Assembly: GCA_902558075.1 (NCBI GenBank)
Contig: CACECO010000001.1
Span: 124,001 to 188,000, forward strand
Reading direction: 5' to 3'
Source of the DNA: an uncultured Litorivicinus sp.
GTDB taxonomy: Bacteria; Pseudomonadota; Gammaproteobacteria; Pseudomonadales; Litorivicinaceae
DNA: 64,000 nucleotides
Every line of letters starts with the position of its first letter. The first letter of the stretch is position 1. Below, piece after piece: positions 13,031-16,119 of this stretch. The notes below the pieces were generated by a model. It saw nothing but the letters and a program-made list of their open reading frames with translations, was not told the origin of the DNA and did no database searches. The position numbers and the translations under genes are program-made.

Positions 13031-14365
13031 GTGCTTATGGCAACGCTACTTCTCGTTACAGACGAAGCAATTATTCGAAAGTCTATTCAACTTGGACTCG
13101 AGCAACGCAGACATCATGTGTTGATCGCCGAGTCGGTCAAGGAAGCGATATCCCAGAAAAGGGACATCGATTGCGTTGTTTGTGAGCATCGACTTGCCGA
13201 CGGATCAGGGATTGATTTGATATCTCACTTTAAACCCGTGCCTCTGATTTTACTTGTTGGCCAAGTGTCCCTCCAAGCCGGAATTTTGGCAATGCGAAAA
13301 GGCGCTTTCGATTGTTTCACCAAGCCTGTTGATCACAACGATTTGCTTCGATCGATCGAAAAAGCAACAGCGACGAGATCCACGATCAGCACAGACATGA
13401 TGATTGGACAGAGCGTAGTCATGCTGAAATTAAAAAAGCAGATATTACGAGTGGCCCCTCTTGAAACAACAATTTTAATCGGGGGTGAATCTGGAACTGG
13501 CAAAGAACTGGTCGCAAAATCCATTCATCAAATGTCCTCACGATCAGAAAAAGACATGATTTCAGTCAACTGCGCTGCAATCCCAAAGCCACTCATTGAA
13601 GCAGAGATCTTTGGCCACGTGAAAGGCGCATTTACGGGCGCAACACAGGATAGAGCTGGGTTAATCGAGTCCGCAGACGGATCGACTCTTTTCTTAGACG
13701 AAATCGGTGAGCTCCCATTAGAAGCGCAATCTCGATTGCTAAGAGTACTTCAGGAAGGCGAGATTCAAAGAGTGGGGAGCACCGACCGAACATATGTCAA
13801 TGTTCGATTGGTCGCCGCGACACATCGGAATTTGCTGGACATGGTCTCGAAAGGCCAATTTCGAGAAGACCTCTATTACCGACTCAATGTCATTGAACTG
13901 CGATGTCCACCACTCAGAGATCGTGGAGAAGATATCATGGTTCTTGCCGAAGCTGTTCTCGACCGGGTCAAACATCAGGTGAATCGACCCGAACTGAGAT
14001 TTAGTGACAGTATCCAGGCATCGATCAAAAGTCACCCATGGCCAGGTAACGTTCGAGAACTCGGTAATGTCATCGAAAGAGCAGTGGTCTTATCCGAAGG
14101 TCCTTTGATCGATCACTCGGATCTTGGACTAGCAGGCGCGCCCGATACAGATAACACGTTTTCTGCAAAAGAACAGCGGCCAATGGGTCGCGCCCAGCCA
14201 ACGATGTCGCTTGAAGACTATTTTCAACATTTTGTGCTGTCCCATGAAGACCAAATGAGCGAAACCGAGCTAGCCAAGCGACTGGGCATCAGCCGAAAGA
14301 GTCTTTGGGAGCGGAGAAATCGTCTGGGAATTCCTCGGCGTAAAGACGAGTTGAAAAATTCGTAA
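13031..14365 (+). CDS. cbrB: CbrB-like sigma-54-dependent response regulator with degenerate receiver
   Basis: Receiver + AAA+ (GAFTGA present) + Fis HTH ETELAKRLGISRKSLWERRNRLGIPRRK; located between gluQ and pcnB as cbrB is in Pseudomonas. Confidence 0.82.
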   Translation: MLMATLLLVTDEAIIRKSIQLGLEQRRHHVLIAESVKEAISQKRDIDCVVCEHRLADGSGIDLISHFKPVPLILLVGQVSLQAGILAMRKGAFDCFTKPVDHNDLLRSIEKATATRSTISTDMMIGQSVVMLKLKKQILRVAPLETTILIGGESGTGKELVAKSIHQMSSRSEKDMISVNCAAIPKPLIEAEIFGHVKGAFTGATQDRAGLIESADGSTLFLDEIGELPLEAQSRLLRVLQEGEIQRVGSTDRTYVNVRLVAATHRNLLDMVSKGQFREDLYYRLNVIELRCPPLRDRGEDIMVLAEAVLDRVKHQVNRPELRFSDSIQASIKSHPWPGNVRELGNVIERAVVLSEGPLIDHSDLGLAGAPDTDNTFSAKEQRPMGRAQPTMSLEDYFQHFVLSHEDQMSETELAKRLGISRKSLWERRNRLGIPRRKDELKNS

Positions 14366-14424
14366 CACCTACTTGCTACTTGTAGTAACGACACGTAACG
14401 ATTTTTCTCGAAAAAAAGTTACCC

Positions 14425-14742
14425 ATAGGTCTAATCTTAGTGATCTCTTATTTTGTATATGATTGCACCTGTTCGAGATAAGACTAATAAAAAAGAACAG
14501 AAGCAGTGACAACAATAAAAAGATAGCTGAATGAGATTACGGTTCACTGTGAGAACTGAGTTTCACGGGAGCAGATTTGTTTCCTTAGGCCGATAACAAT
14601 TAAAAAGCGAAAGCTAAGGCCTTAGTTGCCTAAATAGTAACTTGAGACTGAGATTGCACAATGAAAGGTAATTTCGATTGGTGCGAATAATAAAAATAAT
14701 CAACAACGCACAACCATTAAAAGGGGCGAAAGCCCCTTTTTT
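14425..14742 (+). ncRNA. Candidate CrcZ-like small RNA (5' end uncertain)
   Basis: ORF-free ~400-nt gap between cbrB-like gene and pcnB, ending in a strong intrinsic terminator; at least three AANAANAA motifs (14486-14493, 14511-14518, 14686-14693). Confidence 0.55.
14719..14742 (+). terminator. Rho-independent terminator
   Basis: AAAAGGGGC-GAAA-GCCCCTTTTTT. Confidence 0.9.
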
Positions 14743-14769: not shown

Positions 14770-16119
14770 TTGTGCTACTGGAGTCTTCTATTGTTTTCGG
14801 TGTTTAAAAAGAAATCTTCTCAAAGCGCTCACATCTTCAAAGATGTGGTGACTCAGGAGTATCACGGAATTAATCAACGAGATCTATCGCATGGCAGTTT
14901 ACGGGTCATTGAGGTCCTTCAACATGCAGGGTTCGAAGCCTATCTTGTTGGTGGAGGAATTCGTGATTTGTTACTCGGAAAACACCCAAAAGACTTCGAT
15001 GTTGCGACTAGCGCCAAACCAGTTGAAATTCAGAAACTATTTCGAAAAGCGCGTATCATCGGGCGACGCTTCCAGATCGTCCATGTTCGTATGGGGCCTG
15101 AAATCATTGAAGTGACAACCTTCAGAGGTTCTGCTGAAAATAGCCATTTACAACGAGCGAATGCGTCAGGCATGTTGGTTCGCGACAATGTCTTTGGATC
15201 AGTTGAGGATGACGCTGTACGCCGCGACTTCACAATGAACGCGCTCTACTACGATCCATCTAACCATGAAGTCCTGGACTTTGTTGGCGGCTACGATGAT
15301 CTCGAGGATGGGTTGATTCGAATCATTGGTGACCCTGAGACGCGCTACCGCGAAGATCCAGTGCGTATGCTTAGAGCTGTGAGGTTTGTTGGAAAGTTAG
15401 GCCTTCAACTCGAGGCTGACACAGCAGAACCCCTTCGGCGTCTCGCTCCCCTTTTGAGAGATGTCTCGCCATCGCGGCTATTCGATGAAATCTTGAAATT
15501 ACTTCAGGCAGGCCACGGTCAAGCAACGTTCCCTGAACTCGTTAAATACGATCTGTTACGACCGTTGTTTCCGCAAACTGAAGCCCTGTTCGGCGAGGCC
15601 GATGATTTGCACCACCAACACTTGATAGATCTAGCTCTTTTAAATACGGATAAAAGATTGAATGAAGGCAAGTCAGTGACCCCCGCATTCTTGTATGCAG
15701 CACTTCACTGGCCTAAGGTTCAGCATCGATGGGAAGAGCTCCAGGCTGAGGGACACGGACGCGCACCCGCCCTTGCAATCGCATGCTCTGAAACCCTCGA
15801 CTTTAATCAGCAATTCATTGCGATACCCAAGCGTTTCAGCGTCACCATCCGAGAAATCTGGGAACTGCAAATGAAGCTTGAAAAGCGACATGGCCGTCGT
15901 CCAGACTCAACCCTTGAGCATCCGAGGTTCCGTGCCGGATATGACTTCCTTCTGTTACGTGAACTCTCCGGTGAAATCCAAGGCGGGCTTGGCGAGTGGT
16001 GGACCCAGTATCAAATTGCCGATGACGCGCTACGCCGTGATCTGATTGCATCAGTCAAAGATGATCAGGACGAACTAAAAGCACGGTGTCCGCGCAGACG
16101 GTCGAAGCGCCGTGACTAG
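14770..16119 (+). CDS. pcnB: Poly(A) polymerase
   Basis: AYLVGGGIRDLLLGKHPKDFDVATSAKP...; followed by folK. Confidence 0.94.
   Translation: MCYWSLLLFSVFKKKSSQSAHIFKDVVTQEYHGINQRDLSHGSLRVIEVLQHAGFEAYLVGGGIRDLLLGKHPKDFDVATSAKPVEIQKLFRKARIIGRRFQIVHVRMGPEIIEVTTFRGSAENSHLQRANASGMLVRDNVFGSVEDDAVRRDFTMNALYYDPSNHEVLDFVGGYDDLEDGLIRIIGDPETRYREDPVRMLRAVRFVGKLGLQLEADTAEPLRRLAPLLRDVSPSRLFDEILKLLQAGHGQATFPELVKYDLLRPLFPQTEALFGEADDLHHQHLIDLALLNTDKRLNEGKSVTPAFLYAALHWPKVQHRWEELQAEGHGRAPALAIACSETLDFNQQFIAIPKRFSVTIREIWELQMKLEKRHGRRPDSTLEHPRFRAGYDFLLLRELSGEIQGGLGEWWTQYQIADDALRRDLIASVKDDQDELKARCPRRRSKRRD

Follow-up and report, generated by a model that had tools for sequence, protein, structure and literature searches.

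In Pseudomonas, the decoy RNA CrcZ sequesters the RNA-binding protein Hfq. The cbrA-cbrB-crcZ arrangement has been described in Pseudomonas and Azotobacter only (PMC8871633), and CbrAB has been termed exclusive to pseudomonads (PMC6296734). A search of the open-access literature for CrcZ or CbrAB in other genera of the order found nothing relevant, earlier notice elsewhere being possible. The genomes analysed here extend CbrAB and a CrcZ-like RNA beyond the range stated in both papers; CbrAB together with such an RNA in the gap before pcnB was found in the majority of the families sampled from the order.

The locus described here lies in the window, i.e. the whole 64 kb stretch of DNA analysed, from an uncultured Litorivicinus sp., with the gene order dksA-gluQ-cbrB-RNA-pcnB. 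The gap between the end of the cbrB orthologue and the listed start of pcnB, i.e. the first TTG of its frame, measures 404 bp and carries a structured RNA. Judging from sequence comparison, this RNA is probably a divergent Hfq/Crc decoy of the CrcZ lineage under CbrA-independent control.

A structured RNA between cbrB and pcnB

The original prediction had placed a CrcZ-like small RNA at 14425-14742. Its 3' end stands, as it coincides with an intrinsic terminator, the only terminator-like site in the gap (0.2 expected); its 5' end more likely lies near 14470 than at 14425, given the promoter position in relatives and the place of hairpin 1 (Table 1). The 3'-end sequence, A-rich runs, palindrome (CTAAGGCCTTAG, 14614-14625) and flanking TTAGGC (14585-14590) and GCCTAA (14628-14633) were all recovered, although the palindrome is not part of one nested hairpin and instead feeds two different conserved helices within the long branched arm. 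Matches to AAnAAnAA start at 14486, 14490, 14511, 14514, 14686, 14689 and 14692, i.e. in three clusters, and these seven overlapping matches compare with 0.6 in shuffled sequences; no 274-nt stretch on either strand of the 64 kb exceeds the count of the RNA.

Table 1. Features of the cbrB-pcnB region, in window positions
Feature	Position	Strand	Evidence or remark
cbrB orthologue, NtrC-type sigma-54 activator	13031..14365	+	Pfam Sigma54_activat 1.5e-69, Response_reg 5.2e-11
Two GTAAC half-sites, CbrB-site type	14385-14389 and 14395-14399	+	same pair with 10-bp spacing in most of the genus
Promoter region	14446..14469	+	sigma-54 -24 box absent in the window; TATGAT at 14458-14463 a possible -10 box
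CrcZ-like structured RNA, ~273 nt	14470..14742	+	alignment, fold, covariation; Rfam CrcZ 22.6 bits
Hairpin 1, A-rich loop AATAAAAAAGAA	14470..14499	+	two-sided changes in 2/5 pairs; 98.9% of cells paired
Hairpin 2 (predicted), A-rich loop AACAATAAAAA	14504..14529	+	predicted by most individual folds
Long branched arm	14533..14675	+	27-pair helix 98.4% paired; two-sided changes in inner helices
Hairpin 4 (predicted), A-rich loop AATAATAAAAATAATCAACAA	14681..14711	+	predicted by most individual folds
Intrinsic terminator AAAAGGGGCGAAAGCCCCTTTTTT	14719..14742	+	present in 19/19 genus members
pcnB for poly(A) polymerase I, synteny marker on the 3' side	14770..16119	+	TIGR01942 2.1e-158

From 5' to 3', two hairpins with A-rich loops are followed in the predicted layout by the long branched arm, another A-rich hairpin and the terminator. 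The folding energy of the window sequence is -75.2 kcal/mol, compared with -48.9 kcal/mol for shuffled sequences (z-score -6.5). Mean pair probability is 0.01-0.20 in the A-rich runs versus 0.59-0.69 elsewhere, A-rich sequence tending to be unpaired in any case. Conservation among relatives, whose absence would by the original prediction's own account have refuted it, was borne out: the RNA aligned in 19 genus members, window included, is full-length at the pcnB locus only, and retains its A-rich loops in all of them. Mean pairwise identity within the genus reaches 74% in the RNA and 48% in the upstream spacer.

In the alignment of these 19 members, standard pairs fill 97.6% of the pair cells, and 24 of the 60 pairs show two-sided changes. 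When the partners were displaced by 1 to 3 columns, 32-53% remained paired and 2-11 pairs had two-sided changes, a comparison that somewhat favours the structure because it was derived from the same alignment; shuffled controls gave 10.8 such pairs, with 0 of 500 reaching 24. Hairpin 4 varies in stem sequence among members, and the alignment is too gappy there for a pair count.

The best Rfam match over the gap is CrcZ (RF01675), with an E value of 0.0029 in a 3.5-kb search and a score far below the gathering cut-off of 95 bits. Two other genus members gave CrcZ matches at the same spot (25.7 and 23.6 bits), and an order-wide run with stricter filters did not call it. Among 217 genomes of the order, CrcZ reached the cut-off in 10, belonging to two families, f22 and f2 (family and order labels are those assigned by the genome search tool; f22 we take to be Pseudomonadaceae). 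Matches below the cut-off were found in 45 more, mostly just 3' of cbrAB or 5' of pcnB, and match scores decrease across the order. In other families, most of the gaps that were read combine GTTAC/GTAAC half-sites with a GG-N10-GC promoter and A-rich runs.

Other Rfam families over the region, such as STnc420 and SraG, were discarded (E > 1, largely terminator matches on the opposite strand), as was a viral origin of the element, viral contigs giving no match. Elsewhere in the order, the gaps of G030, G037, G053 and G054 (L056, L063, L079 and L080) hold two GG-N10-GC promoters each, and in G053 and G054 each promoter has its own, equally spaced GTTAC/GTAAC set; these paired promoters suggest tandem CrcZ-like units. 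In a Pseudomonadaceae genome, a match to the Pseudomonas sRNA P36 of Rfam (L140:5051-5111) lies just 5' of crcZ, over the CbrB sites.

Covariation, A-rich loops, synteny, sub-threshold Rfam matches in three members and the presence of crc and hfq in the genus lend good support to a CrcZ-like RNA. The original interpretation is qualified in three respects: the Rfam gathering score is missed widely, crc and hfq were not found in the incomplete assembly of the window, and the circuit is unlike that of CrcZ, with cbrA, the phospho-acceptor aspartate of CbrB and, in this genome, the sigma-54 box absent.

CbrB without CbrA and the promoter region

In the window, gluQ lies directly 5' of cbrB, and no cbrA was found between these adjacent genes in the 15 genus members that have both on one contig; in most other families, gluQ and cbrB are 3.1-3.6 kb apart, with cbrA in between. 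A CbrA query matched 175 of the 217 order genomes at E values up to 1e-60, including seven of the window's genus. A relocated CbrA was nevertheless rejected, since in the three genus genomes examined these matches are to another SLC5-kinase and cover the transporter half only. Separately, a large SLC5-histidine kinase, possibly of CrbS type, is kept in the genus (G000:C13:24844-26628, L154; open frame of 1307 aa).

The window's CbrB harbours an AAA+ domain with intact GAFTGA, and in its receiver Glu replaces the phospho-acceptor Asp (CEHRL). This substitution is found in 14 of 14 readable intact copies of the genus, window included, and likewise in the broken CbrB of G017. Across the order, receivers are damaged in four of five cbrA-less lineages versus 0 of 26 cbrA-bearing genomes; the Fisher p of 0.00016 is a rough guide, as families were treated as independent and the pattern was noticed before the test. 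The damage takes several forms: the receiver has Glu in G038 and G078 of family f15 and, in G105 of the same family, an Asp with other active-site residues lost; Asp is kept in f8 (G031, G073, G102 and G126), with the acidic pocket and Lys lost; and f41 (G094) has Asn at the phospho-site. In f43 (G096), cbrA was not found and the receiver is normal. A strict rule by which loss of cbrA turns Asp into Glu is therefore contradicted by the Asn of G094, by G105, by f8 and by G096.

CbrA of about 370-400 aa was also observed in two families (L157 in G024, L160 in G022 and L130 in G221), with one predicted membrane stretch and PAS-like and kinase parts, and without the SLC5 transporter half. It occurs alongside a normal CbrB in G024, a sister-genus genome with the gene at the locus, and in G221; in G022, also of the sister genus, the same kind of gene is on another contig and the CbrB N-terminus is unreadable. 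Family f26 (G049, G085 and G112) matched neither CbrA nor CbrB. In G049, gluQ adjoins pcnB without space for the RNA between them, and a single ExoIII-type gene was found, as would be expected had cbrAB, the RNA and crc been lost together.

In aspartate-less receivers, the Asp position is most often taken by Glu, and a phosphomimic role has been disproved for some of these pseudo-receivers (PMC12632262). The Glu of CbrB is possibly a built-in phosphomimic, an idea made attractive by its fixation across the genus; alternatively, it may stem from relaxed selection after kinase loss. With cbrA lost and the phospho-site of CbrB mutated, the carbon-sensing switch above the RNA therefore seems rewired.

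Upstream of the RNA, GTAAC is the motif of the reverse subsites in the P. putida crcZ promoter, whose CbrB site has an F1-R1-R2 layout (PMC6296734); the half-sites are spaced about 20 bp there, in contrast to the 10 bp of the window's genus. A sigma-54 promoter box precedes the RNA in 13 of 19 genus members. The window lacks the -24 box (TTTTGTATATGATTGCA), an absence that rests on one assembly, and the box is also absent in G005, G008, G012, G015 and G017. Of these, G008 has no cbrB and G017 a broken one, and both have lost their GTAAC sites wholly or in part; the window genome keeps cbrB and both GTAAC sites. No full sigma-70 site was found before the window's RNA; TATGAT could be the -10 box of a transcript starting near 14470. 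The window's genome harbours rpoN. In two other members, both with the sigma-54 box still in front of the RNA, rpoN is split into pieces with stops (G006, G006:C243:2600-3981) or was not found (G003, 92% complete), which is possibly an assembly error.

Crc, Hfq and competing explanations

Of 22 genus members, 19 yielded a crc gene and 18 an hfq gene. At eight loci inspected, crc lies between rph and pyrE in six; at the remaining two, just one of rph and pyrE adjoins it. The genus Crc matches P. aeruginosa Crc (4JG3) over its full length (7.5e-57); among the residues discussed in PMC6422490, the alignment shows K139, R140, R141, E193 and R230 kept and differences, which weigh against a CrcZ-type decoy, at E142, K155, R196 and R229. 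In the window's assembly, no crc or hfq was found, and a 2.9-kb gmk-rph-crc-pyrE query had no match; since this assembly is 72% complete, a gap in it is the simplest reading. The search for crc that the original prediction had proposed was positive for the genus and found nothing in the window's own assembly.

We infer that the RNA is transcribed, binds Hfq and Crc and influences catabolite repression. Its roughly 273 nt would expose AAnAAn runs in single-stranded loops; once made, it would capture Hfq (with Crc), and repression of catabolic mRNAs would be relieved. In most of the genus, CbrB probably drives the RNA at the sigma-54 promoter without CbrA. In the window species, because the sigma-54 box is gone, the RNA would rely on another promoter or on read-through from cbrB. 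A more daring scenario, which we regard as tentative and on balance doubtful, is a kinase-free switch: CbrB would be a fixed phosphomimic and the decoy set by the amount of CbrB only, some species, the window's included, would then have freed the RNA from sigma-54 and CbrB, with cbrB decaying thereafter, and kinase loss with subsequent receiver damage would have occurred several times in the order, RNA and Crc persisting.

Other readings have to be weighed against a CrcZ-lineage decoy. The outer strands of the arm (~14533-14557 and ~14651-14675) are near-invariant in the genus, more so than pairing alone requires, because 13 of the 27 pairs never vary. Such an arm is not known from CrcZ and suggests an extra or different job. 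Its near-invariance, and its not being seen in the two genomes of the sister genus, would suit a regulatory RNA associated with Hfq that acts mainly through the arm, by pairing with mRNAs or contacting another protein; the loops would then be no more than Hfq landing sites, sequestration being minor or absent. We consider this rather unlikely, as possible partners of the 16-nt core of the arm gave chance-level matches only elsewhere in the five genomes searched, and as it leaves the number of A-rich loops, kept in all members, unexplained. That the conserved block instead encodes a small protein (MRLRFTVRTEFHGSRFVSLGR, ATG at 14531) has next to no probability: a 21-codon open frame is indeed present in several members, but its ATG is absent in G003, G008, G009, G011, G012 and G013 and its core shows no synonymous variation, in agreement with the initial view that the gap holds no credible open reading frame.

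For the window species, the gap, around 56 bp shorter than those of close relatives, together with the absent -24 box and the failure to find a sigma-70 promoter, could also indicate a decaying remnant whose promoter was deleted and whose RNA is no longer produced. This is quite improbable, as the RNA is intact, every helix folds, the terminator is perfect and identity to G009 and G004 amounts to 89%; moreover, loss of the box does not bring quick decay, because the five other box-less members keep the RNA. About as improbable is a cis-acting pcnB leader or attenuator, whose structure and terminator would govern read-through from cbrB into pcnB. It would account for a terminator directly 5' of pcnB and for a window genome without an evident separate promoter, but in most members a sigma-54 promoter and CbrB half-sites lie directly before the RNA, A-rich loops and CrcZ synteny are unexpected for an attenuator, and the RNA persists even in G008, which has lost cbrB, and in G017, whose cbrB is broken.

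Taken as a CrcZ-lineage decoy, the RNA makes this small-genome genus a natural experiment in which the sensor kinase is gone while RNA and Crc remain, and Hfq/Crc control would therefore be separable from carbon sensing. The states seen range from full CbrA, through CbrA without its transporter half and no CbrA with Asp-to-Glu, to no sigma-54 box and no cbrB, and the order of losses is therefore testable.

Comparison with described systems

The RNA resembles CrcZ of Pseudomonas and Azotobacter in its place between cbrB and pcnB, its intrinsic terminator, its upstream CbrB half-sites and its AAnAAnAA runs at both ends of a structured middle, as well as in the sigma-54 promoter found in most of the genus and the presence of Crc and Hfq there. 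In contrast to CrcZ, it is shorter (~273 nt versus 397 in the Pseudomonadaceae genome read), carries a branched arm that is near-invariant and peculiar to it, scores 22.6 bits where the cut-off is 95 and belongs to a genome without CbrA or sigma-54 box, with Glu at the CbrB phospho-site. The CrcZ paralogues CrcY and CrcX are the same kind of A-rich decoy RNA but sit at other loci, whereas the window's RNA is at the crcZ locus; a second copy was considered, and no full-length one was found in the genus.

As to the regulator, the window's CbrB corresponds to that of CbrAB in its locus, its GAFTGA-bearing sigma-54-activating domain and its matching C-terminal DNA-binding end; the genus differs in lacking CbrA and in a receiver that no longer offers the usual Asp for phosphorylation. 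This orphan CbrB, with Asp replaced by Glu, also resembles the aspartate-less response regulators (PMC12632262), with the difference that here kinase loss and substitution can be traced at one locus, with intermediates in other genera.
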